Below, in pieces: positions 8,659 through 28,614 of a stretch of DNA of 46,572 bases. Position 1 is the first letter of the stretch. Every line of letters begins with the position of its first letter. The translations under genes and the position numbers were made by a program. The DNA comes from an uncultured Pelagibacteraceae bacterium (lineage in GTDB: Bacteria; Pseudomonadota; Alphaproteobacteria; Pelagibacterales; Pelagibacteraceae): assembly GCA_905618885.1 (NCBI GenBank), contig CAJQTC010000013.1, forward strand, positions 1 through 46,572, in the 5' to 3' direction. The notes beneath the pieces are model-generated. The model did no database searches, was not told the DNA's origin, and saw only the letters and a program-made list of their open reading frames with translations.

Positions 8659-9246
8659 ATGAACTCAGTGAAAAAAGACATTATTTTTTTAAAAAATTAT
8701 CTAAATGATCTTTCAGATACAATCAGACCTGGTAAAGATATAATTAACGATCTCATACAGGTTAGAAATATATTTTTAAAAATATCGAAAAAAAAAGGTA
8801 AAATTTTAATCTTTGGAAATGGTGGAAGTGCAGCGATTGCCAGTCATGTAAGCGTAGATTTAACAAAAAATGCAAAAATAAGAACTGTTAACTTTAACGA
8901 GGCCGATCTAATAACTTGTTTTTCTAATGATTATGGTTATGAAAGATGGATAGAAAAAGCAGTAGACTTTTATGCAGATCCAAATGACGCGCTAGTTCTG
9001 ATCTCATCTAGCGGAAAATCTAAGAACATGCTAAATGCCTGTAAAGCGGCAAAAAGAAAAAAAATTAAAGTAATTTCACTGACAGGTCATACAAAAAATA
9101 ATCCTTTGTCTAAAGTAGCTGATCTAAGTTTGTGGATTAATTCTAAAGCTTATAATTTTGTTGAAAATACCCATCAAATTTGGCTATTAACTGTTTGTGA
9201 TTTAATTATTGGTAAAAGAGAATATCCCGCAAAAAAAAAAAATTAA
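8659..9246 (+). CDS. gmhA: SIS-domain phosphoheptose isomerase, GmhA-like
   Basis: A 195-residue SIS-domain protein. GKILIFGNGGSAAIASHVSV and ISSSGKSKNMLNAC are the two phosphosugar-binding loops, and VENTHQIWLLTVCDLI near the C-terminus carries the His of the isomerase active site. GmhA converts sedoheptulose 7-phosphate to D-glycero-D-manno-heptose 7-phosphate. The match to GmhA is supported by the heptose kinase at 13753 and by the nucleotidyltransferase-GmhB fusion at 21332, which complete the GDP-heptose route. It is the first gene of a long operon. A related phosphosugar isomerase is the alternative reading. Confidence 0.8.
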   Translation: MNSVKKDIIFLKNYLNDLSDTIRPGKDIINDLIQVRNIFLKISKKKGKILIFGNGGSAAIASHVSVDLTKNAKIRTVNFNEADLITCFSNDYGYERWIEKAVDFYADPNDALVLISSSGKSKNMLNACKAAKRKKIKVISLTGHTKNNPLSKVADLSLWINSKAYNFVENTHQIWLLTVCDLIIGKREYPAKKKN

Positions 9247-9260
9247 TTTAATTCTATTTT

Positions 9261-10778
9261 ATGAGCAACTTAGACGTCTTGTTTATTACGCCCAGATCCA
9301 GACTAGAAGTTTATCAAGGACTATCAAATGAATATGCTGCGATCGAGCCTCCAGTTTGGTCTTCGTTAATCGCAAACTATCTTTTAAAAAGAAATTATAA
9401 TGTTAAAATCCTAGATGCCGAAGCAGAAAATTTAAACCACGACGAAACCGCTGAAAAGATTTTAAAGTTAAATCCTAAATTAGCAGTTTTCATGATTTAT
9501 GGACAGCAACCTTCGGCATCAACTCAGTGCATGCCAGGTGGTAATAAAACTTGCAAAAAATTGAATGAACTATCATCAAACGAAATCAAGTCAGTAGTTG
9601 TTGGAACACACGCATCTGCACTACCGCAACAAACATTAGAGGAAGAACCCTATACATATGTTTGCCAAGGTGAGGGACCTTTAACTATAAAAAATTTAAT
9701 TGATTTTATAGATGGAAAAATTAGTGACATAAAAAAAATTCCAGGACTATGGTATTATGACAAAGATAAAAATTTAAGTTTCAATCCACAAGCAAAAATG
9801 TTTGAAAAATTAGATGAAGATCTTCCAGGACAAGCGTGGAAATTTTTAGATATGAATAAATATAAAGCACACAATTGGCATACGTTTGGTAGACTTGAGT
9901 CTAGAAATTCTTACGCTTCACTCCAAACAAGTTTAGGCTGTCCTTTTAAATGTACTTTTTGTTGCATCAATGCCCCTTTTGAAAGAAATACTATAAGATT
10001 TTGGTCACCTCAACATATAGCTAAACAGGTTAGAGTATTAGTTGAGGAGTATAATATTTTAAATATTAAAATTCCTGATGAAATGTTTGTTCTAAACCCA
10101 AAGCAAGTAATCGGTGTTTGTGATGAAATTATTAAACTTGGCTATGGAGATAAATTAAATTTTTGGGCATACGCAAGAATAGACACTCTTGAAGACGATG
10201 AAATGTTGAGAAAAATGCAGAAGGCCGGCATTAAATGGTTGGGACTAGGAATAGAATCAAGTTCAAAACATGTAAGGGATGGAGTGGTTAAAGGCAGATT
10301 CGACAATTATGATATTGAAGGTATCGTAAAAAAAGTTAGAAAAATGGGTTTTTTTGTAGGAGCAAATTATATTTTCGGTTTACCTGACGATACTTTAGAC
10401 TCTATGAAAGAAACTTTAGATTTATCTTTAAGAATTAATAGTGAGTGGGCAAATTTTTATTCAGCTATGGCATACCCTGGTTCACAATTACATATAATGG
10501 CAAAAAAGAACTCATGGCAGCTTCCGGAAGACAAAGGAGGACCTGGTTGGATTGGCTACTCACAGCATGCATACGAGTGTCTTCCTCTAAGAACGGAAAA
10601 ACTTAAATCAACAGAAGTTTTAGATTTTAGAGATAAAGCTTTTTCAGCATATTTTAACGACTCAAACTATTTATCGATGATAAAGTCTACATTTGGAAAC
10701 AGCACATCTGACCATATTCAAAAAATGATAGCATACAAAATTAATAGAAAACATCACAAAGAGAAGGTTAATTATTAG
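9261..10778 (+). CDS. B12-binding-domain radical SAM enzyme
   Basis: A 505-residue protein with an N-terminal Rossmann-like cobalamin-binding domain (about 1-190, with LDVLFITPRSR, SSLIANYLLKRNYNVKILDAEA and VVVGTHASALP) and a radical SAM domain whose cluster motif CPFKCTFC gives Cys227, Cys231 and Cys234, followed by GLGIESSS and the IFGLPDDT segment. Enzymes of this architecture include methyltransferases acting on unreactive carbons and other radical rearrangements. In this operon a nucleotide sugar or lipid-linked glycan would be a natural substrate, but that is inference. The usual DxHxxG cobalamin ligand motif is not evident, as in many members. It lies 14 nt after gmhA. Confidence 0.85.
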   Translation: MSNLDVLFITPRSRLEVYQGLSNEYAAIEPPVWSSLIANYLLKRNYNVKILDAEAENLNHDETAEKILKLNPKLAVFMIYGQQPSASTQCMPGGNKTCKKLNELSSNEIKSVVVGTHASALPQQTLEEEPYTYVCQGEGPLTIKNLIDFIDGKISDIKKIPGLWYYDKDKNLSFNPQAKMFEKLDEDLPGQAWKFLDMNKYKAHNWHTFGRLESRNSYASLQTSLGCPFKCTFCCINAPFERNTIRFWSPQHIAKQVRVLVEEYNILNIKIPDEMFVLNPKQVIGVCDEIIKLGYGDKLNFWAYARIDTLEDDEMLRKMQKAGIKWLGLGIESSSKHVRDGVVKGRFDNYDIEGIVKKVRKMGFFVGANYIFGLPDDTLDSMKETLDLSLRINSEWANFYSAMAYPGSQLHIMAKKNSWQLPEDKGGPGWIGYSQHAYECLPLRTEKLKSTEVLDFRDKAFSAYFNDSNYLSMIKSTFGNSTSDHIQKMIAYKINRKHHKEKVNY

Positions 10779-10830
10779 TTTATAAAAAACTTATAATTGA
10801 ATTGTTTTATTAATTAATGTAAAAAATTTT

Positions 10831-11352
10831 ATGTTTACATCTATAATTATAAGTGGTGCGCTGGCTCAAGATCATGAGTTTATCTACCCCTATTATCGTC
10901 TATTAGAAGCTAAGAGTAAATTAGACGTATGCATTATTGGTGGAAAACCTGTTAATGGAATTTTAGGTACTATTTTACCACCAAACAAAGATCATCCAGT
11001 TAAAGATATTAATCAAATTAATGTTAAAGATTATGAATTGTTAGTTCTACCTGGAGGAGTAAAGGCGATGGAGAAAATACGTCAAGATGAAAGATTGATA
11101 AAATTTATTAGTGATTTTCATAAAGCAGAAAAAGTTATTGCGTGTATCTGCAGTGGAGCTCAGTTGTTAATTTCGGCAAAAATAGTTAAAGGTAAAAAAA
11201 TCGCTGGTTATTACAGTATGAAAGATGACATCATAAACGCAGGGGGAATTTATACTGATCTACCTGCAGTAGTTGATGGAAAAATTATTACAACTGCACA
11301 CTATAAAGATATGGGTCCTTGGATGGCAGCTACTCTTAATTTCTTTAAATGA
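10831..11352 (+). CDS. DJ-1/PfpI family protein
   Basis: A 173-residue single-domain protein of the DJ-1/PfpI group. The nucleophile elbow CICSGAQLL supplies Cys107, and Glu16 sits where the family has a conserved Glu near the cysteine. LLVLPGG is the usual strand before it. Functions in this group include glyoxalase III/deglycase-type reactions, isonitrile hydration and amidotransfer. Its place between a radical SAM enzyme and a sugar cupin suggests a small-molecule role in the sugar pathway rather than proteolysis. Its last bases overlap the cupin start by 4 nt, showing translational coupling. Confidence 0.85.
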   Translation: MFTSIIISGALAQDHEFIYPYYRLLEAKSKLDVCIIGGKPVNGILGTILPPNKDHPVKDINQINVKDYELLVLPGGVKAMEKIRQDERLIKFISDFHKAEKVIACICSGAQLLISAKIVKGKKIAGYYSMKDDIINAGGIYTDLPAVVDGKIITTAHYKDMGPWMAATLNFFK

Positions 11353-12044
11353 ACAAAAAAAAAAATGCTTATTATGATAATAGAATTGTATTTAAACCTT
11401 GGGGTCATGAATACGTAGTTTATCGTTATAAAAATATTTTATCAGTTACTTTACTTAATATAAACCCAACCAAAAGTACTTCACTTCATTGTCATCCAAC
11501 AAAAAAAACTGGTTTTGTTTTATTAGACGGCAAAGCATTAATTCAATTAGGCCTTTGGAAAAGTGAAAGAAAAATTTATAAAAGTCCTTCTAAGCTAATG
11601 ATTAGGACTGGCTTATTCCACTCCATAAAATGTATATCTAAAAAGCCATTATTGGCTTTAGAATTTGAAACACCTATAAATAAAAACGATCTAGTAAGAT
11701 TTAACGATAAATATGGGAGAGAAAAAAAGCCGTACGAACAGGGAAAAAAAATTTCAAATTTAACTAAAAATAAAAATATTTTAAAATTACATAAATTTAA
11801 AGAAAAAAAAGAGTATTTATTTGGTAAAACGACAGTTAAACTTGAAATTCATAAAAATTTTAAAAAGCTTGTAGCTGAAAAAAATAACACTATATTTGCT
11901 GTTTTAAACGGAAGTGTATGCAATAAAAAGAAACAAAAAATATTATCTCCTGGAGATATTATTAGAACAGGAACTTTTAAGAAATTAGCTCAAGTTTTTA
12001 AAATAGATAAAAAGTTAGCTGTCTTAAAAATTAATAATGAATAA
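11349..12044 (+). CDS. Cupin protein, mannose-6-phosphate isomerase type II-like
   Basis: A 231-residue protein with an N-terminal cupin: KPWGHEYVVYR, then SLHCHPTKKTGFVLLDG with metal ligands His48 and His50, and a further His at 92. The first motif resembles the C-terminal isomerase cupin of type II phosphomannose isomerases. A second, weaker cupin repeat follows at about 155-225 (KLEIHKNFKKLVAEKN, SPGDIIRTG), without clear metal ligands. The family Glu after the two His appears replaced by Thr. It may isomerise or epimerise a sugar phosphate, or be a binding protein. It overlaps both neighbours (4 and 8 nt). Confidence 0.65.
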   Translation: MNKKKNAYYDNRIVFKPWGHEYVVYRYKNILSVTLLNINPTKSTSLHCHPTKKTGFVLLDGKALIQLGLWKSERKIYKSPSKLMIRTGLFHSIKCISKKPLLALEFETPINKNDLVRFNDKYGREKKPYEQGKKISNLTKNKNILKLHKFKEKKEYLFGKTTVKLEIHKNFKKLVAEKNNTIFAVLNGSVCNKKKQKILSPGDIIRTGTFKKLAQVFKIDKKLAVLKINNE

Positions 12045-12873
12045 AAACTTTAGATTAGAGATCTTTAAGAAAGCTTCTTTGTGCAGAAACTTTGAAGAAA
12101 GAGTTATTGAAAACGTAAATAATAAAAAAATTACAACACCAGTTTATGTCTCTGCTGGGCAAGAATTTATAGCAGCAACACTATCTTCAATTTGTAAAAA
12201 AAAAAAAATCAAACCATTAATATTTGGTCAACATAGATGTCATTCAACCTATTTAGCTTTTGGAGGAAATATTATTAAACTTATTGACGAATTACTTGGA
12301 AGAGAGAGTGGATGCACTAAAGGGAAAGGTGGCTCAGCATCAATTCATTCTAAAGATATCAATATGTTTGGTCATGATGGCTTGATGGGTTCAAACGGGC
12401 CTATCGGTGTTGGAGCGTGCTTTGCAACAAAAAAACCTACTATAATATTTCTAGGTGATGCTGCTGCGGAAGAAGACTATGTTTTAGGTGCTCTTGGTTG
12501 GGCTTCACATAAAAAATTACCAATTTTATTTATTGTAGAAGATAATGATTTATCTATTTTAACCAAAAAAAGTGTCAGACGTAATTGGAACATGAAAGAT
12601 GTGGCCAGATCATTTAAACTAGAAGGACATGACATTAAAGATGATCCCAAAGAAATTGAAAAACACTCAAATTTGTTCTTTAAAAAACCTATGCTGTTGA
12701 ACATAAATACCAATAGAATTTATTGGCACGCTGGAAGTGGAATAGATAATAAAAAAACTTTCGATCGATTTAGAAATGAAAAAACAAAATTAGGAAACCA
12801 AGCTATAAAAATAGACGAACAGTATAAAATAAATATTAAAAAATTATGGAAATTACAGTTAGAGAAACAATAA
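12037..12873 (+). CDS. TPP-dependent 2-oxoacid dehydrogenase/transketolase-like E1 alpha subunit
   Basis: A 278-residue E1-alpha-type protein. The thiamine diphosphate site is visible as LGDAAAEEDYVLGAL (140-154) running to VEDND with Asn170, and GQHRCHSTYLAFGG and KGKGGSASIH are the usual E1-alpha loops. The second half of the enzyme is the next gene, overlapping by 28 nt. In 2-oxoacid dehydrogenases E1 decarboxylates the acid and passes the acyl group to a lipoyl E2; no E2 or E3 is encoded in the window. In a sugar operon an E1-like pair more likely works as a carboligase that transfers a two-carbon or acyl unit to a sugar. That is inference from context. Confidence 0.85.
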   Translation: MNKNFRLEIFKKASLCRNFEERVIENVNNKKITTPVYVSAGQEFIAATLSSICKKKKIKPLIFGQHRCHSTYLAFGGNIIKLIDELLGRESGCTKGKGGSASIHSKDINMFGHDGLMGSNGPIGVGACFATKKPTIIFLGDAAAEEDYVLGALGWASHKKLPILFIVEDNDLSILTKKSVRRNWNMKDVARSFKLEGHDIKDDPKEIEKHSNLFFKKPMLLNINTNRIYWHAGSGIDNKKTFDRFRNEKTKLGNQAIKIDEQYKINIKKLWKLQLEKQ

Positions 12874-13778
12874 AAAAAACAGTTTTAAAGCATTTAAAAG
12901 AAAAAAATGGTTTAATTCTTGGACAATGTTTGTCAGCCGTTGGATGGGTTGGTGGAACAATTCCTGAGTTAACCGAAAAAGAAGGTGTTATCGAATTAAG
13001 CATGGCTGATGTTGCAAATGGTGGTATTGTTGTTGGAGCTGGCCTGTCCAATAGAAGACCTATATATGTCATTAGATATCAGGGTTTTAATTGGTTCAAC
13101 GCCCCAATCATCCTAAATTATGCATGTAAATCCAAAGAATTATGGAATGTACCTTGCCCAATATTTATTAGAGGTATAGCTATGGAGGGCTCAATTGGTC
13201 CAGTAGCAGGATCATCTCATTGTTCCCTTTATTACCGAATGCCTGGAGTTAAAATTATCTCACCAATGACTCCTAAAGAGTATAAATTAGCATATAAAAG
13301 TTTTATGAACGAAGATGAAGTTTACTACGTCTCTGAACATCGAGCCAGCTATGGTAACCACAAAGAACTTAATGATTTTTTATCTGATGATGTTGATATA
13401 ATTATTTTTTCAATATCCATTACAAGATTTGAAGCTCAAAAAGTTAAAGAAACTCTTGAAAAAGAAAATTTAAAAATTGCGATAGCAAATATTTTATGGA
13501 TAAAACCATTTGAAATTAAAGATCAATGGCTAAGAACTCTTGAAAAATCTAAACACGGCGGAATTATTTTAGATGATGACTATGAGAGCGGGGTTGCCTC
13601 TGATATGGCGTACCAGTTAATGAAACTATCTAGCAAAAAAGTGGAAGTAATGGGATTAAAAAATCAGTCAGCCGGTTTCTCCAAAAAAAGTGACAACCTT
13701 CCTCCTAATGAAAAAGAAATTATTAAAAAAATAAGAGAAATTATAAAAAAAAATGTTAATTACAAAAACACCCTATAG
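12846..13778 (+). CDS. TPP-dependent E1 beta subunit (transketolase pyrimidine + C-terminal domains)
   Basis: A 310-residue partner of the preceding E1 alpha. Residues 1-170 are the transketolase pyrimidine-binding domain (VIELSMADVANGGIVVGAGLSNRRPIYVIRYQGFNW in the TPP region), and about 190-300 the transketolase C-terminal domain. Where E1-beta proteins normally have a Glu (SEMGFAG) that activates the TPP aminopyrimidine, I align Asp55 in SMADVANGG. This could alter chemistry, but the alignment is by eye. It overlaps E1 alpha by 28 nt and the heptose kinase by 26 nt, so the three proteins are made from one message. Confidence 0.85.
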   Translation: MEITVRETIKKTVLKHLKEKNGLILGQCLSAVGWVGGTIPELTEKEGVIELSMADVANGGIVVGAGLSNRRPIYVIRYQGFNWFNAPIILNYACKSKELWNVPCPIFIRGIAMEGSIGPVAGSSHCSLYYRMPGVKIISPMTPKEYKLAYKSFMNEDEVYYVSEHRASYGNHKELNDFLSDDVDIIIFSISITRFEAQKVKETLEKENLKIAIANILWIKPFEIKDQWLRTLEKSKHGGIILDDDYESGVASDMAYQLMKLSSKKVEVMGLKNQSAGFSKKSDNLPPNEKEIIKKIREIIKKNVNYKNTL

Positions 13779-14733
13779 AATCTCTTTTTTTGGTGGAGGT
13801 ACAGACTATCCTGTGTGGTACCAAAAACACGGAGGTGCGTTTCTTTCAACTACTATTGATAAATATGTTTATTTAACTGTAAGACAATTACCTTCATTTT
13901 CGGACTCTAATTATAGAATTGTGTGGTCAAAAGTAGAAACAGTAAATAAAATTAAAAACATTCAACACAATGTTGTTAGAGAAATGTTAAATAATTTTAA
14001 TTTCAAAACAGGAATGGAAGTTCATTATCAAGGCGATTTGCCGGCAAGGAGTGGAATGGGTTCTAGCTCTAGTTTCGTTGTGGGACTAATGAATTCTTTT
14101 TTAAATATTAAAAAAAAAAGGGTCTCAACAAAAGATTTAGCAAAAAAAAGTATTTATTTTGAACAAAAAACGCTCAAAGAAGTAGTTGGTATGCAAGATC
14201 AAATTTCAGCGACGTATGGTGGATTTAACAAAGTAGATATAGATCGAGATGGTAACTATAAAATAAAAAAAATTAAGATAGATAATAAAATTAAAGAGTT
14301 TAATAAAAATCTTGTTTTAATTTTTACTGGAATAAACAGAACAGCAAATGAAATAGCAGGTCAATATGTAAGCAATCTAAAAAACAAAGAATATGAAATG
14401 AAAGAAATATCATCACAAGTTAAAGAAGGAGAACGCTTATTATTGAAAAATAAATTTAATGACTTTGGACGTTTATTACATGAAGGTTGGAAATTAAAAA
14501 AAAGTTTAGGAAAAGTAATTACAAATCAGAAAATAGATGATCTTTATGAATTTTCTTTGAAGCATGGTGCGTTAGGAGGCAAAATATTAGGAGCTGGGGG
14601 TGGCGGGTTTATGCTCTTATACTTACCAAAAAACAAAATAATAAATTTTAAAAAAAAGCTTAAAAATACTACTATTATACCCTTTAATTTCTCCGAAAGT
14701 GGTTCAGAAATTTTATTAAATACTGAAAAATGA
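13753..14733 (+). CDS. hddA: D-glycero-D-manno-heptose 7-phosphate kinase (GHMP kinase), HddA-like
   Basis: A 326-residue GHMP kinase. The N-terminal TPYRISFFGGGTDYP, the ATP-binding motif SGMGSSSSF at 100-107 and the C-terminal GAGGGGF at 280-286 are all present. This signature set is the one seen in HddA, which phosphorylates heptose 7-phosphate at C1, and in related L-fucose/GDP-sugar kinases. The gmhA-like gene in the same operon and the GmhB-nucleotidyltransferase fusion nearby favour HddA. It shares 26 nt with the E1 beta gene and 4 nt (ATGA) with the DegT-family gene. Confidence 0.82.
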   Translation: MLITKTPYRISFFGGGTDYPVWYQKHGGAFLSTTIDKYVYLTVRQLPSFSDSNYRIVWSKVETVNKIKNIQHNVVREMLNNFNFKTGMEVHYQGDLPARSGMGSSSSFVVGLMNSFLNIKKKRVSTKDLAKKSIYFEQKTLKEVVGMQDQISATYGGFNKVDIDRDGNYKIKKIKIDNKIKEFNKNLVLIFTGINRTANEIAGQYVSNLKNKEYEMKEISSQVKEGERLLLKNKFNDFGRLLHEGWKLKKSLGKVITNQKIDDLYEFSLKHGALGGKILGAGGGGFMLLYLPKNKIINFKKKLKNTTIIPFNFSESGSEILLNTEK

Positions 14734-15914
14734 AAAATTTTAAACACCCATTAATGGAGAATAATTTCACTAAGTCGGATATAGATTTAGTAGTTAAATT
14801 GTTAAAACAAAAAAATGTAATCTTAACTCAGTCTACAAATGTTTTGAAATTTGAGAAAGCTTGGTCAAAATGGCTGGGAGTTAAATATAGTGTTTTTGTT
14901 AATTCTGGTTCATCAGCTAATCTATTAAGTATTTCAATACTTAAAATTTTAGATAAGAAAAAAAAAAATATAATATTACCAGCACTTACATGGTCTTCGG
15001 ATGTTGCTTCGATTATACAAAATAACTGTAAACCCGTTTTTGTAGATATAAATTTAAACAATCTTTCAATGAATCTTGAAGAAGCAAAAAAGAAGATAAA
15101 TAAAAAAACTTTGGCCGTTTTTATTACTCATGCACAAGGATTTAATGCCCTTACAAAAAATTTCATTGATTTCTTAAAAAGAAAAAAAATACCTTTAGTT
15201 GAAGATGTTTGCGAGTCTCACGGTGCAACATTAAATAAAAAAAAACTTGGAACGTTTGGTTTGATTTCAAATTTTTCTTTTTACTATGCTCATCATATGT
15301 CGACTATAGAGGGCGGTATGATATGTACCAACAATAAGAATGTTTATGAATTAGCTCGTTTGTTAAGATCCCATGGAATGGCAAGAGAACTTTCAGACAA
15401 AAAAAAAGAAATAGAAATCATTAAAAATAATCCAAAACTTTCTCCTAAATTTATTTTCATACATCCCTCCTACAACATGAGAAACAATGAAATAGGCGCC
15501 GTTCTAGGACTTAATCAACTTAAAAGACTAGATAAAAATAACATCATAAGAGCTAAGAATTTAAAACTATTTTTAAACCTTATTAATAGTAGCAAATATT
15601 ACACAGACTTTAATCTTAGTGGAAATTCAAATTATGCTTTTCCAATAATATTAAAAACTTTAAATATTAAAAAAAGAGATATTTTCGAAAAAATTTTAAG
15701 TAGTTATAATATTGAGTTTAGGAGAGGAAATGCTGGAGGTGGTAACCAGTTGAGGCAACCATATTTAAAAAAATATATTCGTAATATTAATGTAGAAAGT
15801 TTCAAAAATGTGGAGAGAGTTCATTTCTTCGGGTATTATATAGGCAATTACCCTTCTTTAACTAAAACAAAAATTATAAAAATTTGTAAAATTTTAAACA
15901 ATATTATATTTTAA
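14730..15914 (+). CDS. DegT/StrS-family sugar 3-dehydratase (ColD/RfbH type, His in place of PLP lysine)
   Basis: A 394-residue PLP-fold protein of the DegT/DnrJ/EryC1/StrS family: NSGSSANLLS, ALTWSSDVASII, VEDVCESHGA. The segment that normally carries the Schiff-base lysine reads SFYYAHHMSTIEGGM, with His188 at the lysine position. This substitution is known from ColD (GDP-4-keto-6-deoxymannose 3-dehydratase) and RfbH/E1 of ascarylose biosynthesis, which use PMP and remove the C3 hydroxyl. Length fits ColD better than the longer, iron-sulfur-containing E1. The product would be a 3-deoxy-4-keto nucleotide sugar. It is the last gene of the operon and its stop codon shares TTAA with the converging HemN-like gene. 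Confidence 0.85.
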   Translation: MKNFKHPLMENNFTKSDIDLVVKLLKQKNVILTQSTNVLKFEKAWSKWLGVKYSVFVNSGSSANLLSISILKILDKKKKNIILPALTWSSDVASIIQNNCKPVFVDINLNNLSMNLEEAKKKINKKTLAVFITHAQGFNALTKNFIDFLKRKKIPLVEDVCESHGATLNKKKLGTFGLISNFSFYYAHHMSTIEGGMICTNNKNVYELARLLRSHGMARELSDKKKEIEIIKNNPKLSPKFIFIHPSYNMRNNEIGAVLGLNQLKRLDKNNIIRAKNLKLFLNLINSSKYYTDFNLSGNSNYAFPIILKTLNIKKRDIFEKILSSYNIEFRRGNAGGGNQLRQPYLKKYIRNINVESFKNVERVHFFGYYIGNYPSLTKTKIIKICKILNNIIF

Positions 15915-17338
15915 ACACTTGTTCTTGGTATCTGTCTTGCAATAATATCTTTTTGATCGTCGTAAGTTTCGATTCTGTTATATTTATCAAACACATTAAT
16001 TATTTGGGGAGTAAAATGAATTCCAATATCAGTAATTTGAATTTTTTCATTGCTGCAAACAACTAATCCGTCATTTTCAAGCTTTTTTAGTAAAGCAAAC
16101 TCTATTTCAAAGTATTTTTTAAAATTAATCTGAAATTTTTTTTCAATATTAGCAATATTTAAATAATAGTATGTTTTTAAAAACTGTAAAATATTTCTTC
16201 TTATTTTGTCATCTGAGTTAAGTTTAGTGCCTCTAAAAGTGGGTAAATGTCCTTGCCTAATACACTCTCTGTATTTATTTTGTTCGTAATAATTTTGAAA
16301 ATAATAATCATCACCTAAACATCCTCCACCCGAAGTTCCTAAAGCAATAAAATTTGTCACATCTCCTGTTTGGGTGCCCAACGAATTGTATAGTGCTTTT
16401 TCATTACTCATCGCCTTGATAAGAGGATCGTCAGGTAAAGCATATGATTCAAATCCAGCTTTTTTATAACCTCCATCATTCATTAGTTTTTCCTTAACAA
16501 CCCCGTACATCTCTTGCCGGTCGTAAAAATCCGGAAGAGGACCATCTTTCAACATATTAATCATATATTTTCTCTTAAACGGATCATAGTGCAGAAGCAT
16601 GGGTTGAATTTGAGTAGGTTTTATTTTGATTACTTTATCTAAAGTTTTACTCATGCTTGTGGAAGTCTGGCCCGGAAGACCGATCAATAAATCAAAATTA
16701 ATTACTTTAAATTTATCTCTTACTTTAGTGGTAAGTAAGCTATCAAATAATTTTTCATCCTGTATTCTGTTTATTCTCTTTTGAACTTCCAAATCAAAAT
16801 CTTGAACTCCAAATGAAAGACGATTTACACCGCACTCATGATAAAATAACAATTTTGACTCATCTACTCTTCTTGGGTCGATCTCAACAGTAAAATCAAT
16901 AACATTATCAAAATTATAACAAGTTTTTAATTTATCTATAAGTGCCTTAAATTCTTTTTCTTTATAAAAGGTTGGCGAACCTCCACCAAAATATATTTCT
17001 TTTACATTTAAAGTTATATTATTTTCTTTCAAAAAAGAAAAAAGCATATCTATTTCTTTAAATAAATAATTATATAAATAATCTTCTGCTTTTTTGTACT
17101 CAGAAGTTATTTCTTTGCTGCAGAAACAAAAATAACAAAGTTGTTCACAAAAAGGTGTGTGTACATATAACATTATTGGTTCTGACGTATTTCTCGGCAG
17201 CCAATCTAATAAGCTTTTTTTATAATCATCTGATTTAAAATTATAGTTCCAATTATCTTTAGTGGGATATTCAGAGTAATTAAAGAATATATCCCTATGA
17301 TATTTTTTTAGTAAATTTGCATCAAGCTTACTCATCAA
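15911..17338 (-). CDS. HemN-like radical SAM protein
   Basis: A 475-residue protein close in layout to oxygen-independent coproporphyrinogen III oxidase. YVHTPFCEQLCYFCFC contains Cys64, Cys68 and Cys71 of the cluster plus the extra Cys73 typical of HemN. EIYFGGGSPTF, EIDPRRVDESKL and GVNRLSFGVQDFD are family motifs, and a C-terminal HemN-type domain follows. True HemN makes protoporphyrinogen in haem synthesis, but HemN-like proteins also include haem chaperones and other radical SAM enzymes. Its setting, translationally coupled (11-nt overlap) to a glycosyltransferase within a sugar island, is odd for a haem gene, so I do not give a symbol. Confidence 0.8.
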   Translation of the reverse strand: MMSKLDANLLKKYHRDIFFNYSEYPTKDNWNYNFKSDDYKKSLLDWLPRNTSEPIMLYVHTPFCEQLCYFCFCSKEITSEYKKAEDYLYNYLFKEIDMLFSFLKENNITLNVKEIYFGGGSPTFYKEKEFKALIDKLKTCYNFDNVIDFTVEIDPRRVDESKLLFYHECGVNRLSFGVQDFDLEVQKRINRIQDEKLFDSLLTTKVRDKFKVINFDLLIGLPGQTSTSMSKTLDKVIKIKPTQIQPMLLHYDPFKRKYMINMLKDGPLPDFYDRQEMYGVVKEKLMNDGGYKKAGFESYALPDDPLIKAMSNEKALYNSLGTQTGDVTNFIALGTSGGGCLGDDYYFQNYYEQNKYRECIRQGHLPTFRGTKLNSDDKIRRNILQFLKTYYYLNIANIEKKFQINFKKYFEIEFALLKKLENDGLVVCSNEKIQITDIGIHFTPQIINVFDKYNRIETYDDQKDIIARQIPRTSV

Positions 17339-18266
17339 AACCTATTTTACTTTCTACGATGTATTTTGGTCTATTAGTTGTTTGTTTATAAATTAGCCCA
17401 ATGTATACAGAAATAATACTTAAAATAAAAGCTTGAATTCCAACAAGAAAAAATACGCCAAAAAGAAGTAAGTTTGAAAAGCTTAAAAAATCTTGATTTT
17501 GGATAATTTGATAAATCATAATTGGTATTAATAATATAATTATTGCTATACCCACAAAACCAACAATAAAAGAAAATCTTATTAAAGTATCAGAAAAAGG
17601 CAGCAAGGCACCCTCAAGAAAGTTAAATATTACAGATTTAAAACCAAATTTACTTTCACCATGTTCTCTTGGTTGACGCTGATATAAAACTTTTTCTCTT
17701 TTGAAACCAACAAAATCTACTAAAAATCTAAAGTTACTTGTTTCATTTAACTCAATTATTTCTTTAATTACTCTTTTTGAAATAAGACGAAAATCTCCAG
17801 CGTTTTCTTCTAAATTTATATAATTAAATTTTTTTAATATCTTATAACCAAAAAATGTTAAAATATTATTTATAAAAGAATTTTTAAATTTTTCTCTTTG
17901 AGAATAAACAACATCACAATTTTGTTCTCTCCATTTTCTTATCATTTTAGCTATAATTTCCGGAGGATCTTGTAAATCAATATCCATATGAATAGCCGCG
18001 TCACCTTCACAATATTTTAAACCAGCAAGGACGCAAGGCATATGACCAAACCTTCTTGACATATTGATAACTTTAATTTTTTTATTATTTATAGATTTAT
18101 TTGATAATAATTTTAGTGAATCGTCAGTAGAGGAGTCATTAATAAAAATTAATTCATAATCTAGATCTTGAATACCTGACAATGCATTGGAAACATGTTC
18201 AACCGCATCGTTAATACAGTTTTCTTCATTAAAAAAAGAAAAAATTATTGATATTTTTTGTGTCAT
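17328..18266 (-). CDS. Family 2 glycosyltransferase, GtrB/ArnC/DPM-like
   Basis: A 312-residue membrane-anchored glycosyltransferase. The GT-A domain (1-210) shows SIIFSFFNEE, the nucleotide-sugar and metal site DIDLQDPPE (Asp95, Asp97, Asp100), GDFRLIS, and REHGESKFG. Two C-terminal helices (about 225-253 and 263-290) follow. This architecture belongs to polyisoprenyl-phosphate glycosyltransferases that charge undecaprenyl phosphate with one sugar for later transfer on the periplasmic side. It is the first gene of the minus-strand pair with the HemN-like protein. The large membrane protein at 22582 could be the periplasmic transferase using its product, an inference. Confidence 0.87.
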   Translation of the reverse strand: MTQKISIIFSFFNEENCINDAVEHVSNALSGIQDLDYELIFINDSSTDDSLKLLSNKSINNKKIKVINMSRRFGHMPCVLAGLKYCEGDAAIHMDIDLQDPPEIIAKMIRKWREQNCDVVYSQREKFKNSFINNILTFFGYKILKKFNYINLEENAGDFRLISKRVIKEIIELNETSNFRFLVDFVGFKREKVLYQRQPREHGESKFGFKSVIFNFLEGALLPFSDTLIRFSFIVGFVGIAIIILLIPIMIYQIIQNQDFLSFSNLLLFGVFFLVGIQAFILSIISVYIGLIYKQTTNRPKYIVESKIGFDE

Positions 18267-18440
18267 ATAAATTTTATATAAAATAATTATTAATTATTAT
18301 CAAATGATTAATAGAATCCATCATAATTTTTAACTAAAAAATATAAAAACACCTATATCACGTCGTTTGTCTAAAAAATATGAATTCTTTATAACTAATA
18401 AAGGTAGATTGATACCTGAAAAGTTCTTTTAGTGCTTCAA

Positions 18441-18953
18441 TCATATTTTTTTATATAAATAGAATAGAACAGTCGACAACACACCACTTGTTTCAAACTT
18501 ATTTTTATTCAAGTTTTGAATTATTTGTTTTTTATTCATCCATTTTCTTTCTATTTTTTCTATTTTATTTTTTGTCTCTTTTTTTTTAATATTGCTCGCA
18601 AAAAATATATAATCTTTGCCACAATTGTATGTGCCGTGGCGTGAATAAGTGAATAATAATTTCCAATTTTTAGCTATGAAACCTGTTTCTTCTAAAAGTT
18701 CTCTTTTAATAGCCTGGATAGGTTTTTCTTTTTTTTCTATATTGCCTCCAGGGAAACCTAGGGACATTTTTTTTAAACCTCTTCTATATTCATTTAAGAA
18801 TAAAACTCTCTTTTCTTTATCTTGGAGTACTACCATACTTGAGTTTTGCAGATAAATTTGATGAAAGTTTTTTTTGCTTTCATATTTATTTATGTAGTTT
18901 TCCCTAATAATTTTAACAAACGGTTTAAATTGATAAACAATTTTTTTTGGCAA
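18441..18953 (-). CDS. NUDIX hydrolase
   Basis: A 170-residue protein with a complete Nudix box at 70-92: Gly70, Glu76, Arg84-Glu85, Glu88-Glu89 and Gly91. The preceding NEYRRGLKKMSLGFPGG is typical of ADP-ribose or nucleotide-sugar pyrophosphatases. In this island it might remove damaged or excess nucleotide sugars; the substrate is not determined. It is transcribed divergently from the dioxygenase-like gene with 63 nt between the starts. The 174 nt between it and the glycosyltransferase contain nothing I recognise. Confidence 0.88.
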   Translation of the reverse strand: MPKKIVYQFKPFVKIIRENYINKYESKKNFHQIYLQNSSMVVLQDKEKRVLFLNEYRRGLKKMSLGFPGGNIEKKEKPIQAIKRELLEETGFIAKNWKLLFTYSRHGTYNCGKDYIFFASNIKKKETKNKIEKIERKWMNKKQIIQNLNKNKFETSGVLSTVLFYLYKKI

Positions 18954-19016
18954 GACAAAATCCTTGTTTTAAGTTTTAAATTTAATTAATTATAAAATTA
19001 CTATATACAATGTCAT

Positions 19017-19916
19017 ATGAGTATTAAATATAGAATAAGTAGAATAGATAAAATTAGTAAAAATTGGAAACTGAACAAGGTTCATCCGCTAATTGCAGCT
19101 TATAAAATTGAAAAAAATTTATTTAATGATTTTAAATTTAACTTAAAACTTTACATCTCAAAAGCAATGTCGATAAAGTTTGATGATAATGATAAAAAAT
19201 TTATTAGTAATGTTGATAAAGCTAGAAAAAATAGAAGAAACATAACACCTAATGGAGCCGTAGTACCCAAAAGAGAGTATCACCTAGAATACAACCTAGT
19301 TTTAAGAAGTTGGTGTGAGTTAATAAAAAAAATAACTAAAAAAGATGAAAAATTATTAAAACTTTTTAGGATAACTCCCAATATTAGAATAAAGTTCGGT
19401 AAAGAGCTAAGTGAAAATGAAAATAGAGAATTATCTACCTCTGTTCCACATTCCGATGCTTGGGTAGAAGGACCCTGGGGAATGAATTGTTTTATACCAT
19501 TTATTGGAGATGTAAAAAAAAATAATTTACTTTTTTATGAACCCAAATCTAAATTTGAAGAAAAGTTTTTAAGTGATTCACCATCTTATAAAAAAATGCA
19601 ATGGGTGATGAAATATTATAAGCCTATTAAGAATCTAGTTCCTAAAATTGGACACGTTCATTTTTCAGATTATGCTGCGATTCACAATACCTATAGAAAA
19701 AATAATTGCGGGACTAGAATTTCAATTGATACAACTATATTTGTTGGAAATCACTTACCACATAAAGATAGAATTAAAGAATATTCAAAAATAATACCCT
19801 CTATCGGTCTGGATCAATTTATCGATTCTGGACAATATGAAAGAAATAAACCAGCAGAAAAAATGAGCACATATTCTCACTACACATCTAAGGTTTTGAA
19901 AATTATAAAATTTTAA
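19017..19916 (+). CDS. Putative Fe(II)/2-oxoglutarate-type oxygenase, StrG-like
   Basis: A 299-residue protein without close family recognition. The central part suggests a double-stranded beta-helix oxygenase: VPHSDAWVEGPWGMN gives His145-x-Asp147, and after a spacer HVHFSDYAAIHNTYRKN gives His223, followed by Arg234 in GTRISIDTT. A H-x-D...H...R layout is the Fe(II)/2-oxoglutarate site. I have seen similar proteins labelled StrG-like in sugar clusters, whose reaction is not established. It starts a plus-strand operon with the RmlC-like and SDR genes (1 nt and 0 nt spacing), so a sugar-modifying hydroxylase is a reasonable guess. Confidence 0.6.
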   Translation: MSIKYRISRIDKISKNWKLNKVHPLIAAYKIEKNLFNDFKFNLKLYISKAMSIKFDDNDKKFISNVDKARKNRRNITPNGAVVPKREYHLEYNLVLRSWCELIKKITKKDEKLLKLFRITPNIRIKFGKELSENENRELSTSVPHSDAWVEGPWGMNCFIPFIGDVKKNNLLFYEPKSKFEEKFLSDSPSYKKMQWVMKYYKPIKNLVPKIGHVHFSDYAAIHNTYRKNNCGTRISIDTTIFVGNHLPHKDRIKEYSKIIPSIGLDQFIDSGQYERNKPAEKMSTYSHYTSKVLKIIKF

Positions 19917-19917
19917 A

Positions 19918-20409
19918 ATGATTTCAGGTTTAAAGATAATAAAAAATTCATCGTTTAAAGATAAAAGAGGTTTTTATTGGACAACATGGAAAAAAGGAAT
20001 GTTTAACAAAATTAAATTTAATCATGACAAATTCTCAACATCAAAAAAAAATACAATTAGAGGATTGCATTGTGACTTTAAATCATGGAAATTAATCACA
20101 TGTGTTTTTGGTAAAATATTATTAGTTGTGGTTGATATGCGAAAAAATTCAAATAATTATTTAAAAACACAAAAAATAATATTATCACATGAAAAACCTA
20201 AGCTAGTTTTAATACCTCCTTATTATGCAAATGCACATTTGTGTTTATCGCAAACCTGTGTTTTTCATTATAAATGGTCTTACAAAGGAAAATATATAGA
20301 TGCAAAAAAACAAAAAAGCTATAAATGGGATGATCCTAAATTTAATATTAAATGGCCAATAAAAAAACCAATACTTAGCAAAAGAGATAAAAATTCTAAA
20401 TATATTTAA
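19918..20409 (+). CDS. RmlC-like nucleotide-sugar 3,5-epimerase
   Basis: A 163-residue cupin of the dTDP-4-dehydrorhamnose 3,5-epimerase family. NTIRGLHCDFKSW contains the catalytic His51 motif RGLH, preceded by DKRGFYWTTWKK and followed by KILLVVVDMR and PPYYANAHLCLS, in family order. RmlC-like enzymes epimerise 4-keto sugars at C3 and/or C5; in Campylobacter related enzymes act on GDP-6-deoxy-4-keto-heptose. The usual catalytic Tyr region is altered (VFHYKWSY), so single-position epimerisation or a different substrate is possible. It sits directly between the oxygenase-like gene and an SDR. Confidence 0.78.
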   Translation: MISGLKIIKNSSFKDKRGFYWTTWKKGMFNKIKFNHDKFSTSKKNTIRGLHCDFKSWKLITCVFGKILLVVVDMRKNSNNYLKTQKIILSHEKPKLVLIPPYYANAHLCLSQTCVFHYKWSYKGKYIDAKKQKSYKWDDPKFNIKWPIKKPILSKRDKNSKYI

Positions 20410-21345
20410 ATGAAAAAAATTCTTATTACAGGAGGTGGAGGATATATTGGATCGATGTTAAGCACAGAACTCATTAATCAAGGCTATAAAGTTACAGTTA
20501 TTGATATATTAAAATATGATAAAGGATCTTTGGATCATCTTTATTTTAATAAAAATTTCATTTTTATAAATAATGACGTTGGAAACACATCTCTCCTCAA
20601 AAAACAGATTAAAGAACATGACTTTATAATTCCATTAGCTGCTTTAGTTGGTGCACCATTATGTGAAAAGAATAAAAAAGATGCTGTAGCTATTAATTTT
20701 GGATCAATTAAAACTATATTAAATAATTTAAATAATAAAAATAAGTTGATTTATCTGACTACGAATTCTGGATACGGTATTGGAAAAAAAAATAAATACT
20801 GTGATGAAAACAGTCCATTAAAACCGATATCATTATACGGCCAAACAAAATGTGACGCAGAGAATGAAGTACAAAAATTTAAAAACACGATAAGCTTTAG
20901 ATTAGCTACCGTATTTGGTGCAAGCTATAGAATGCGAAGCGATTTGCTAGTAAACAACTTTGTTCAAAGAGCTGTAGAAAAAAACTACATTGAAATTTTT
21001 GAACCTAAATTTAGAAGAAATTTTATCCATATTAAAGATGTTGTTAAAGCAATAATATTTTCAATAGAAAACTTTAATAAACTTAAATCAAATGTTTATA
21101 ATCTTGGTCTTTCCAGCGCTAATATTACTAAAATTGACCTAGCTAAAAAAATAAAAAAACAGCTTAAAACTTTAAAAATTAAAGTTATAAAAAATAGATC
21201 AGACCCTGATAAACGTGACTATTTTGTTAGCAATGTTAAAATAGAAAAAAAAGGTTTCAAAGCCACAATTTCTATAGAAGAGGGAATTAGAGAATTAATC
21301 GAAGTTTTTAAAAATAATAGTAATAAAATTACTAACAATTATTAA
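20410..21345 (+). CDS. NAD-dependent epimerase/dehydratase (extended SDR)
   Basis: A 311-residue extended SDR: cofactor loop TGGGGYIGS at 7-15, Asp31 after the second strand (NAD preference), Thr117-Thr118 and the catalytic pair Tyr143-x3-Lys147 in SLYGQTKCDAE. RRNFIHIKDVVKAI is a conserved part of the nucleotide-sugar domain. It is probably a nucleotide-sugar 4-epimerase, 4-reductase or 4,6-dehydratase. It starts immediately after the RmlC-like stop, so together they could act as epimerase plus 4-ketoreductase on a deoxyheptose. Its end overlaps the convergent nucleotidyltransferase-GmhB gene by 14 nt. Confidence 0.87.
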   Translation: MKKILITGGGGYIGSMLSTELINQGYKVTVIDILKYDKGSLDHLYFNKNFIFINNDVGNTSLLKKQIKEHDFIIPLAALVGAPLCEKNKKDAVAINFGSIKTILNNLNNKNKLIYLTTNSGYGIGKKNKYCDENSPLKPISLYGQTKCDAENEVQKFKNTISFRLATVFGASYRMRSDLLVNNFVQRAVEKNYIEIFEPKFRRNFIHIKDVVKAIIFSIENFNKLKSNVYNLGLSSANITKIDLAKKIKKQLKTLKIKVIKNRSDPDKRDYFVSNVKIEKKGFKATISIEEGIRELIEVFKNNSNKITNNY

Positions 21346-22528
21346 TCAAAGATTTTATTTGTTCATAGAAATTTGGAGCAGGGTAAAAAAATTTAATTCT
21401 ACTTGATCTTGCAGCCATCATATCAGTAACTTTATCTCCTATCATAAAACTTTTTTTAGAATTTAAATCCCAATTAAATTTAATATTTTGAATCATTTTA
21501 TTTCCGGGCTTTCTCATCAGAGAATTTCTTTTATATATTTTTATAGTAGCTTTTGGGTGAAATGGTGAATACTGCACATCATCAAAAAAAATATTAAGCT
21601 TTTGAAGTTTTGTTTTAATTTGTCGGTGAAATTTAATAAAATCATTTTCTGTATACATCCCTTTAGCTATGCCAGCCTGATTAGTGACTATAAAGATATA
21701 GTAGTTTTTTTTTATTAAAAATTTTAATCCTTTTAAAACACCTTTCTTAAACTTGAAATCTTTTAATTTATGAACATGACCTTTGTCATAATTAATTACC
21801 CCATCTCTATCTAGAAAAGCAGCAGGTCTTTTATATTGATTTCTGAGTTTAGCTTCTCCTTCCTTTAAATAATGTTTTGAACCTATGTCTATAAAAAAAT
21901 TCTTAAACGTTTGTCCATTAATTTTTTTATTATTAATTAATTTAGGCAACAATTCATTTTCTAGCGAAGTATTATTTTTTATATAATTAAATATTTCTTT
22001 TTTAAAATAATAAATACCACCATTCATCATAGAGCTATTTTTTTTAATAAAGAGGATTTTTTTTTTTGAAATTAAATTATTTAATTTTTTGCTTTTTTGA
22101 CTTTTATTTTTTGTCAATGCAACAATTCCTATTTTATTTTTTTCTAAGTTAGCAGTGAGTAAATTTAAATTAATATCAAAAATTGTGTCTCCATTCATTA
22201 ACACAAAATCTTCAACATTTAACTTTTTTAAATTTCTTAATGCGCCAGCAGTACCTAATAATTTTTTTTCTCTCAAACATATAATTTTATTAAAGTTTAT
22301 AATTTTATTATGATATTTTTTAAAAAAAAATTTATGCCGATAACCACATAAAATTATTATTCTTCTAAAATTATATTTACTTGTATTATTAAGAATGTAT
22401 TGAATGAAATGTTTTGAATTAAATTTTATCATTGGCTTAGGATATTTTCCAAGAAAATTTTTAATTCTCGTTCCTTTCCCACCTGCTAAAATTACTAAAT
22501 CAATCTTATCAAAATTTTTATTTATCAT
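21332..22528 (-). CDS. Fusion of sugar-1-phosphate nucleotidyltransferase (HddC-like) and heptose-bisphosphate phosphatase (GmhB-like)
   Basis: A 398-residue two-domain protein. Residues 8-230 are a nucleotidyltransferase with LAGGKGTR at 14-21, GTAGAL and MNGDTIFD. Residues 235-385 are a HAD-family GmhB domain: FLDRDGVIN with Asp240 and Asp242, VTNQAGI, and GDKVTD with Asp365 and Asp369. The pair would carry out the last two steps to GDP-D-glycero-D-manno-heptose in one protein. The Cys/His zinc loop known from E. coli GmhB is not present: SPFHPKATIKIYKRNSLMRKP has one His and no Cys. I prefer the ATG at 22528 to a TTG two codons upstream. Confidence 0.85.
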   Translation of the reverse strand: MINKNFDKIDLVILAGGKGTRIKNFLGKYPKPMIKFNSKHFIQYILNNTSKYNFRRIIILCGYRHKFFFKKYHNKIINFNKIICLREKKLLGTAGALRNLKKLNVEDFVLMNGDTIFDINLNLLTANLEKNKIGIVALTKNKSQKSKKLNNLISKKKILFIKKNSSMMNGGIYYFKKEIFNYIKNNTSLENELLPKLINNKKINGQTFKNFFIDIGSKHYLKEGEAKLRNQYKRPAAFLDRDGVINYDKGHVHKLKDFKFKKGVLKGLKFLIKKNYYIFIVTNQAGIAKGMYTENDFIKFHRQIKTKLQKLNIFFDDVQYSPFHPKATIKIYKRNSLMRKPGNKMIQNIKFNWDLNSKKSFMIGDKVTDMMAARSSRIKFFYPAPNFYEQIKSLINNC

Positions 22529-22581
22529 TAGCAATTTATTATTTAGTATTTTATATTAATCATAATTGAATTTAATTTAAA

Positions 22582-25475: not shown

Positions 25476-27653
<2,178 letters not shown>

Positions 27654-27732: not shown

Positions 27733-28614
27733 ATGATAAATATATCAGCAAAGCAACTTAGATACTTCCTCGCGGTTGCTAAACAAAAAAACTTTCAAAA
27801 AGCAGCTGATGAATGTGCAATTTCGCAGCCAGCCTTATCTATGAAAATCAAAGAACTCGAAGGCACACTTGGTCAGCTTATTGAAAGAGGAAGTAAGAAA
27901 TTTTATTTAACTCAAACTGGACAAGCTTTAGTTAATAAAGCAGAAAATATTATCCAATCATTTGATGACCTTAAACACCTGGCAAATAAAGGTGATGGCA
28001 TTAATCAATTGTCTATTGGTGCAATTCCAACGGTTGCTCCTTATTTGCTGCCTAAAATTATTAAAACCATTTCTAAGCAATACAAAGATATTGTGATTGA
28101 ACCTAAGGAGGCCGTTACAGATAAATTAGTTTCTTATTTAATTACTGGAAAAATAGACTTAGCTATTTTAGCTCTCCCAACTTATGAACCTTTATTAACT
28201 GAGATACCTCTTTTTGAAGAAGAATTTTTATTAATTCGTCATATAAACGACGCAAATAAACCTGTGCCAAACAATAAAGAACTAACAAACATGAAATTAC
28301 TATTATTAGAAGAAGGACATTGTTTAAGAAGTCAGACACTATCTTTTTGCAAAGTAACTTCTGTGCCAAAAAATATTATGGAGGGCACTACACTAACAAC
28401 ATTAGTTCAAATGGTTAGTTCAGGCATTGGCGTAACATTAATTCCTGAAATAGCTGTACCTTTTGAAACAAGGTCAGCTAAAGTTTCAATTAGTAAATTT
28501 CAACAACAAAAACCAAAACGAATTATAGGGCTGGTTTGGAGAAAATCTAATCCATTGTTACGACAATTTAATGAAATTGCAATTTTGTTAAAAAATTTAA
28601 ACCAAATAAAATAA
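27733..28614 (+). CDS. oxyR: OxyR-type hydrogen peroxide-sensing LysR regulator
   Basis: A 293-residue LysR-family protein: winged HTH at 1-60 (FLAVAKQKNFQKAADECAISQPALSMKIKELE) and a substrate-binding-like domain. The peroxide-sensing segment LLEEGHCLRSQTLSFC contains Cys197 and Cys206, matching the redox pair Cys199/Cys208 of E. coli OxyR, including the neighbouring GHCLR motif. That makes a true peroxide sensor likely. It is divergent from katG, the classic target. The palindrome at 27693-27714 may be its site. A small C39-like gene follows 6 nt after the stop. Confidence 0.93.
   Translation: MINISAKQLRYFLAVAKQKNFQKAADECAISQPALSMKIKELEGTLGQLIERGSKKFYLTQTGQALVNKAENIIQSFDDLKHLANKGDGINQLSIGAIPTVAPYLLPKIIKTISKQYKDIVIEPKEAVTDKLVSYLITGKIDLAILALPTYEPLLTEIPLFEEEFLLIRHINDANKPVPNNKELTNMKLLLLEEGHCLRSQTLSFCKVTSVPKNIMEGTTLTTLVQMVSSGIGVTLIPEIAVPFETRSAKVSISKFQQQKPKRIIGLVWRKSNPLLRQFNEIAILLKNLNQIK

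Follow-up and report, generated by a model that had tools for sequence, protein, structure and literature searches.

What sugar is made by a gene cluster that places heptose genes beside a thiamine-dependent enzyme and a radical S-adenosylmethionine (SAM) enzyme? Such a cluster lies on contig C13, a SAR11-type contig of 46.6 kb (the window, i.e. the whole stretch of DNA that was analysed), from a source genome of 571 kb that is 57% complete. The original prediction placed at 8659-22534 a GDP-heptose set, a ColD/RfbH-type 3-dehydratase, an E1 alpha/beta pair and a B12-type radical SAM enzyme, together with an RmlC-like epimerase, a short-chain dehydrogenase/reductase (SDR) and an oxygenase-like protein, and read them as a pathway to a deoxygenated, possibly branched heptose. 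All of these genes are present at those positions in the open reading frame listing. We lean towards the reading that this operon, with its neighbouring genes, produces a GDP-3-deoxy-heptose that is extended by thiamine-dependent C–C bond formation, altered by the radical SAM enzyme and destined for a surface glycan. A conserved route to GDP-3-deoxy-heptose is likely, and thiamine-dependent carbon addition is probable.

Six genes of the cluster, for a DJ-1 protein, a cupin, E1 alpha, E1 beta, a kinase and the 3-dehydratase (DegT), overlap head to tail by 4–28 bp and therefore read as one transcript. Upstream, short gaps separate the gene for a SIS-domain protein from the radical SAM gene (14 bp) and the latter from the DJ-1 gene (52 bp). 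Farther downstream, the SDR gene adjoins the RmlC gene without a gap, the oxygenase-like gene (Oxy299) stops one base ahead of RmlC, and a gene for a nucleotidyltransferase–GmhB fusion (− strand) converges on the SDR gene (+ strand). The nearest curated (NCBIfam) names are gmhA, HddA, HddC plus GmhB, RfbH, pyruvate dehydrogenase (PDH) E1 alpha/beta and HpnJ/BchE.

Predicted GDP-heptose activation, C4 oxidation and 3-deoxygenation

All four families of the GDP-D-glycero-D-manno-heptose pathway (GmhA, HddA, GmhB and HddC) are found together in the window. The SIS-domain protein (8659..9246, + strand), a phosphoheptose isomerase-like candidate for the GmhA role, scores 90 bits against the NCBIfam gmhA model (cut-off 209), and its best Protein Data Bank (PDB) matches are all phosphoheptose isomerases, with DiaA ranking lower; a relative with 71% identity also stands next to the cassette in locus L037. 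The HddA-like GHMP kinase (13753..14733, +), the putative heptose 7-phosphate kinase, scores 155 bits against HddA (cut-off 600; next model, 91 bits). Its PDB list is headed by the unnamed sugar kinases 4usm/4usk (5.8e-39), ahead of the heptose kinases 4n3o (3.7e-36) and 3k85 (5.4e-35), with mevalonate kinase at 1.5e-15. The fusion protein (21332..22534, −), which joins an N-terminal HddC-like guanylyltransferase to a C-terminal GmhB-like phosphatase, scores 122 bits against GmhB (cut-off 150) and 97 bits against HddC (cut-off 300), and fusions of this kind, 389–411 amino acids (aa) long, recur across SAR11-type loci. By hidden Markov model (HMM) and PDB ranking, the SIS protein, kinase and nucleotidyltransferase are nearest to heptose enzymes, save for the sugar kinase that tops the kinase list.

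The same four families make GDP-octose in lincosamides. Similarity of the SDR and RmlC proteins to known enzymes favours a predicted GDP-heptose over GDP-octose, and it provides stronger, independent support for a heptose than the three rankings above. The SDR (20410..21345, +) is GDP-heptose C4-dehydrogenase-like: its profile matches 6vo6/6vo8 at an E-value of 8.6e-103 (next family, 2.6e-23), and 155 of 300 residues (52%) are identical to this protein, which we take to be Campylobacter jejuni Cj1427, a GDP-heptose C4-dehydrogenase. The Tyr and Lys of the Tyr-x-x-x-Lys motif are kept in all 61 aligned SDRs. Cj1427 is described in the available text of PMC7949155 as the C4 oxidase of GDP-manno-heptose. 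The SDR would supply the 4-ketone that a ColD-type enzyme needs, the origin of which had been left unexplained in the original prediction. The RmlC-like sugar epimerase (19918..20409, +), presumably a C5 epimerase, matches the C. jejuni GDP-4-keto-heptose epimerases at an E-value of ~1e-43 (next group, dTDP-type, 1e-20), sharing 73 of 156 residues (47%); the paper on the C. jejuni heptose epimerases is the source of one such structure, 7ani. On these grounds the heptose and its GDP activation hold up, as does the predicted parallel with Campylobacter, the nearest solved relatives of both the SDR and RmlC being C. jejuni heptose enzymes.

The ColD-type, pyridoxamine 5′-phosphate (PMP)-dependent 3-dehydratase (DegT fold; 14730..15914, +) carries His in place of Lys. 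Its best PDB matches are ColD (2gms, E-value 9.5e-53), and the His aligns with a position at which two solved ColD variants, 3b8x and 2r0t, are altered. A His–His pair is present in 80 of 80 DegT proteins, i.e. that of the window and 79 relatives (L108 is not in this set). Cys residues occur solely at positions 100, 161, 199 and 386; the [2Fe-2S] Cys cluster of RfbH/E1, as we take its motif to be, is absent. The 3-dehydration of ColD/RfbH type that had been proposed is supported by the PDB ranking and the catalytic His.

C. jejuni modification of GDP-heptose resembles the predicted pathway in the GDP-heptose itself and in C4 oxidation, PMP-dependent 3-dehydration and RmlC-type epimerisation by relatives (Cj1427, the HS:5 C3-dehydratase and the C3/C5 epimerases); the window cassette adds TPP (thiamine pyrophosphate) enzyme and radical SAM genes to this chemistry. 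According to the available part of PMC10680097, Cj1427 plus C3-dehydratase yields GDP-3-deoxy-4-keto-heptose in vitro, a C3,5-epimerase acts on the product, and a section heading terms the GDP-3-deoxy-4-keto-heptose products novel. The C4-dehydrogenase and C3-dehydratase were paired there as a mix from two serotypes, whereas they are encoded together in the window, and the window operon resembles a naturally occurring counterpart of that in vitro mix.

Conservation of the gene set

A scan of named genomes gave 551 pattern matches, 495 of them confirmed, and the best 80 loci, picked by DegT similarity, were analysed; their titles are of Pelagibacter type in 46 cases and of other kinds in 34. 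A TPP gene is present in 66 of these loci, a radical SAM gene in 61 and both in 57, and the kinase, SDR and nucleotidyltransferase are present in 65, 60 and 49, respectively. When the DegT-selected loci are limited to those flanked by 5 kb or more on either side (51 loci; L108 is not among them), the numbers are 46 (TPP pair or fused pair), 43, 41, 47, 45 and 40, in the same order. Only one partner of the thiamine pair was detected in L070, L105 and L108, and the short pair of L101 was entered by hand. Carriers of the cassette include SAR11, Cyanobacteria, Nitrospira, Lentisphaerota and other phyla.

Closer to the window, DegT matches at 1e-40 were found in 34 of 101 genomes (its own and relatives), nine of them, window included, at ≥51% identity. 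RmlC lies near DegT in all eight same-genus relatives, and the SDR and nucleotidyltransferase are there too in seven. Contig ends truncate two same-genus loci (L039 and L042); in a third, L043, the cluster is reduced, with no SDR, kinase, radical SAM or nucleotidyltransferase matches. Lack of conserved co-occurrence in relatives had been named beforehand as the finding that would overturn the original prediction; co-occurrence was found in the eight same-genus genomes and, for the TPP and radical SAM genes, in the 57 of 80 loci given above. The recurrence of the gene set, whole or partial, in same-genus genomes and in many phyla is more than chance. Around the next DegT paralogues (32–41% identity) of the same genome set, E1, transketolase and cassette-type radical SAM proteins were unmatched in 11 of 12 control loci. 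Control locus L048 holds a short E1 pair, a kinase and an SDR, with no radical SAM match, and a distant acetolactate-synthase relative occurs in 3 of the 12.

An entry independent of DegT came from the HpnJ model, run against 143 genomes of the class; 16 of the radical SAM proteins that it found, eight of them above the HpnJ cut-off, were added to the tree. Five of the eight below the cut-off fell inside the cassette clade. Three of the corresponding five loci contain an E1 pair, SDR, kinase and ColD-type DegT, the last being 32–34% identical to that of L107 and keeping the ColD motif SHH, and two of the three also contain the nucleotidyltransferase (L172 does not); of the other two, L173 lies beside an E1 pair only and L176 stands alone.

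RmlC is present in 25 of the 80 loci and a GDP-fucose-synthase-like SDR (>250 bits) in 22; both are present only in L111. The reductases with which C. jejuni reduces C4 are of the GDP-fucose-synthase-like type according to the accessible text of PMC7949155, whereas no such SDR was found in the examined stretch of any of the 24 RmlC-bearing SAR11-type loci (among which we count L063, where the sole RmlC match lies ~9 kb from DegT). This absence fits consumption of the C4 ketone in C–C bond formation.

The thiamine and radical SAM enzymes

The E1 alpha-like TPP subunit (12037..12873, +) carries the motif GDA...EDND, scores 72 bits against Pfam E1_dh and matches PDH E1 alpha in the PDB. It is the sole E1_dh match in the 57%-complete genome, and the sole E2 match sits on a different contig. 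The E1 beta-like subunit (12846..13778, +) matches Pfam Transket_pyr and Transketolase_C and, in the PDB, E1 beta. We rejected, as the main reading, the idea that the pair is a displaced house-keeping pyruvate dehydrogenase: there is no adjoining E2 or E3 gene, and the beta subunit resembles true E1 beta only weakly (37 bits) and carries Asp in place of the catalytic Glu. The available part of PMC4802897 reports that E1-like pairs attach a two-carbon unit to C4 of deoxysugars. Two marks of such PDH-E1-type branching can be compared with the window: an E1 alpha and beta pair without adjoining E2/E3 genes inside a deoxysugar cluster is present, and a catalytic Glu in E1 beta is not, although it is kept in 59 of 59 other pyrimidine-domain proteins aligned.

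Across the loci the thiamine slot is occupied by an E1 alpha/beta pair, separate or fused, by a short E1-like pair of ~200 + 178 aa, or by a split transketolase pair, and seven SAR11-type loci additionally encode an acetolactate-synthase-like protein. The companions of window-type E1 beta are the acetolactate-synthase-like gene (seven loci) or DJ-1 plus cupin (five loci, including the window), and L073 has a window-type E1 beta with neither. The acetolactate-synthase-like gene, the long E1 pair and the short E1 pair all occur in one cluster in L061, L064, L067 and L116. No match to the short pair was found in the genome behind L072, whose cluster most resembles that of the window, nor in the 57%-complete window genome, where the one weak match is E1 beta of the window itself. 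The TPP types swap, since L092 (transketolase) and L134 (E1) have sister radical SAM proteins. The fewest changes of TPP type are 11 on the radical SAM tree and 15 on the DegT tree (54 rows each; minimum possible, 3), compared with means of 28.7 and 29.0, respectively, for shuffled labels. The idea that radical SAM type tracks TPP type holds only partly, given the 11 changes needed on the radical SAM tree.

The radical SAM protein (9261..10778, +) has a B12-type domain, with Pfam B12-binding and Radical_SAM both above cut-off, and groups in one clade with the other cassette radical SAM proteins. Its CxxxCxxC motif (residues 227–234) is present in 54 of 54 such proteins. The AlphaFold2 (AF2) model has a predicted local distance difference test (pLDDT) score of 91.4, and the nearest solved structure is AprD4, a sugar-acting radical SAM 1,2-diol dehydratase, both by profile (9.4e-25) and by Foldseek (6e-23). 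VIA-align of the Foldseek matches gave AprD4 a Z of 30.2 (root-mean-square deviation 3.0, 416 residues aligned), followed by MgmA at 27.9. AprD4 is thus alike in fold and profile; its substrate differs, identity over the aligned residues is 19%, and the score of 83 bits lies below the AprD4 NCBIfam cut-off of 500.

The best curated sequence models are HpnJ (133 bits, cut-off 577.6) and BchE. The available text of PMC12583986 assigns HpnJ, in the hopanoid pathway, the conversion of BHT-glucosamine to a cyclitol ether, i.e. of a sugar into a carbocycle. Although HpnJ is the best curated name for the window protein, identity with HpnJ itself was rejected, since the eight above-cut-off HpnJ proteins form a separate clade on a long branch. 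Function as a plain methylase is less favoured. BtuR and over-cut-off matches to MetH and BtuB were found in none of nine SAR11 genomes (57–89% complete). In six of the nine, MetH gives a weak match confined to part of its N-terminal third, and five (G009, G017, G021, G022 and G037) have a TonB receptor scoring 118–189 bits against the BtuB model (cut-off 600). Carrier genome G138 has BtuR.

Predicted pathway, its rivals and neighbouring genes

Homology to enzymes of known function suggests the first four steps. The SIS protein, GHMP kinase, GmhB domain and HddC domain would convert sedoheptulose 7-phosphate to GDP-D-glycero-D-manno-heptose; the SDR would then oxidise C4, with 2-oxoglutarate as the final oxidant if it is Cj1427-like; the ColD-type enzyme, with PMP and glutamate, would take off the C3 hydroxyl to give GDP-3-deoxy-4-keto-heptose; and RmlC would invert C5. 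We infer the remaining three, including the C–C bond, its position and the radical step. The TPP enzyme may extend the sugar by two carbons, the likeliest version being transfer of acetyl from pyruvate to the C4 ketone, as is assumed for the PDH-E1-like pairs of paulomycin, kosinostatin and avilamycin. Radical chemistry by the AprD4-like enzyme may remove another hydroxyl or bring about a ring or C–C change. A family 2 glycosyltransferase (GT2) could transfer the sugar to polyprenyl phosphate and a GT-C protein could pass it to the acceptor.

Several known systems share parts of this plan. Yersiniose synthesis (YerE) also uses a 3-deoxy-4-keto nucleotide sugar and a TPP enzyme, and the paulomycin (Plm8/Plm9), kosinostatin and avilamycin clusters likewise contain an E1 alpha/beta pair. 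Sugars of the yersiniose and paulomycin type are based on a hexose or pentose and are, presumably, not GDP-linked, whereas a GDP-heptose is predicted here; a further difference is that three TPP types alternate in one slot of the cassette and that Asp replaces Glu in E1 beta of the window. The colitose pathway shares the ColD-type dehydratase, and a GDP-fucose-synthase-like SDR is common to it and many non-SAR11 cassettes; it differs in acting on a hexose instead of a heptose, in using a 4,6-dehydratase instead of a C4-dehydrogenase and in lacking the TPP and radical SAM genes. A literature search, which covered few subscription journals, found no paper whose listing describes a pathway of this kind.

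Several observations weigh against the proposed extension at C4. All 13 window-type (SAR11 long type) E1 beta proteins have Asp for the catalytic Glu. The GDP-fucose-synthase-like SDRs of 22 loci, 19 of them non-SAR11, may reduce C4 and leave no ketone to branch; outside the RmlC-bearing SAR11-type loci they count against use of the C4 ketone or favour extension at another carbon. On these two counts a two-carbon branch at C4, made by the thiamine enzyme, is unproven, while the heptose, GDP activation, 3-deoxygenation and Campylobacter parallel of the original prediction are supported. Long and short E1 pairs occur together in seven SAR11-type loci, four of which have the acetolactate-synthase-like gene, and so may not be mere alternatives. 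The set is also incomplete in part of the 80 loci: 14 lack a TPP gene, 19 a radical SAM gene and 10 both. Some of these gaps are due to contig ends, but L059, L095 and L096 have neither despite 5 kb on both sides. Four loci (L043, L127, L132 and L135) retain DegT, RmlC and a transketolase pair, with no SDR or kinase in the examined stretch, and the radical SAM proteins of L126 and L132 (2 of 61) are just 28–29% identical to that of the window and may be paralogues. Finally, none of the window's cassette proteins reaches an NCBIfam equivalog cut-off, the fusion's phosphatase half being the sole part above cut-off, on two broad HAD domain models, so that family assignment rests on the other tests described.

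A different site of extension seems to us possible but rather unlikely: the radical SAM enzyme would act as an AprD4-like 1,2-diol dehydratase on C6–C7 to give a 6-deoxy-7-aldehyde, to which the TPP enzyme would add two carbons, yielding a nine-carbon sugar, while GDP-fucose-synthase-like SDRs, where present, would reduce C4. The ranking of AprD4 as nearest solved structure by profile and fold speaks for this, although a close fold does not prove a reaction. So do the persistence of radical SAM and E1 genes together without the others (L173), the coexistence of TPP genes with GDP-fucose-synthase-like SDRs, and the aldehyde acceptors that transketolases, one of the slot types, are understood normally to take. 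However, no sequence feature indicates the site of attack, a 4-ketone would be left over in the RmlC-bearing SAR11-type loci, where the examined stretch contains no C4-reductase, and a TPP gene without a radical SAM gene occurs in 9 of 80 loci and the reverse in 4. We think it unlikely that the pathway ends at a 3-deoxy-heptose (a colitose-like heptose), the E1 and radical SAM genes serving some other product of the glycan cluster, for example a decoration with acyl groups or lipid. C. jejuni pathways do make GDP-3,6-dideoxy-heptoses according to the accessible part of PMC10680097, several sugar pathways occur within glycan clusters, and the E1 block of L121 lies 7–8 kb from DegT; yet in the window the E1 pair, with overlapping reading frames, stands between the radical SAM gene and the kinase, the same set of partners turns up in different phyla and through the radical SAM entry, and a C4-reductase of known type was not found in the examined stretch of SAR11-type RmlC loci. 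That the split transketolase or E1 pair simply supplies sedoheptulose 7-phosphate to the SIS isomerase, with no branching of the sugar, is highly improbable. The pathway requires this substrate and some loci hold true transketolase-type pairs, but the same slot holds PDH-E1-type pairs, which presumably do not make ketoses, and cells presumably already have a transketolase.

A more specific form of the GDP-3-deoxy-heptose extension, which we put forward as a long shot, would be a route, widespread and so far undescribed, to carbocyclic sugars or sugars of higher carbon number. The 3-deoxy-4-keto GDP-heptose (C1–C7) would receive acetyl or glycolyl (C8–C9) through the swappable thiamine enzyme, whose type would set the donor, the radical SAM enzyme would close a C7–C8 ring, and SAR11, whose cells rank with the most abundant of the ocean, would carry such sugars. 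Caryose is the 4,8-cyclo-3,9-dideoxy-nonose of the Burkholderia caryophylli O-antigen, and C7–C8 closure would give its carbon plan. The same plan, applied to an eight-carbon sugar, would yield bradyrhizose, with the structure that we take it to have. For bradyrhizose, an 11-gene cluster was proposed in 2016, with steps not assigned (PMC4743980).

If the preferred reading, a GDP-3-deoxy-heptose extended by the thiamine enzyme and altered by the radical SAM enzyme, is correct, SAR11 and several phyla would make a deoxygenated, C-extended heptose by joining C. jejuni heptose chemistry with a yersiniose-type thiamine step. Substrates and expected masses would then be defined for every step, a radical SAM family that acts on sugars by an unknown reaction would be on offer, and the gene set could be tested against O-antigen sugars, branched or carbocyclic, for which the genes are unknown or have only a tentative place. 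Surface sugars of SAR11 probably matter for phages.

Use of the sugar may fall to two further proteins. The GT2 protein (17328..18266, −) resembles polyprenyl-phosphate sugar transferases of the ArnC/DPM1 type in Pfam and NCBIfam. Of 29 SAR11-type loci with a fusion gene, 18 place a relative of the GT2 gene directly next to it; in the window the two genes are 3 kb apart. A polytopic membrane protein (22582..24444, +), presumably a GT-C-like periplasmic glycosyltransferase, has no Pfam match and an AF2 model with a pLDDT of 80.5; its Foldseek matches are weak (best E-value, 3.9e-4), with the top four all GT-C enzymes (DPY19, ArnT and AftA). Its relatives follow GT2 in six loci, and the two proteins look like an ArnC/ArnT-type pair.

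The DJ-1/PfpI protein (10831..11352, +) and the mannose-6-phosphate-isomerase-type cupin (11349..12044, +; PF01050), both identified by Pfam, form the window-type sub-module. DJ-1 lies between the radical SAM gene and the cupin also in L058, L072 and L090 and, apart from the rest, in L121, and the cupin is found in the same four loci. Oxy299 (19017..19916, +) has no NCBIfam match and no Pfam match at E-values up to 1; it contains an HxD...H motif, which we take to be that of 2-oxoglutarate/Fe(II) oxygenases, and its HSD and H are conserved in 3 of 3 aligned copies. Two relatives are encoded in L072 (3648-4550 and 14292-15230), one of them directly upstream of the radical SAM gene.

A HemN-type radical SAM protein (314 bits; hemN cut-off, 325) is encoded at 15911-17338 (−) in the window and is also found in L072. 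Beyond the cluster, what we take, by reading, to be a catalase-peroxidase-like gene (25476-27638, −) adjoins a putative gene for a LysR-type regulator (27733-28614).

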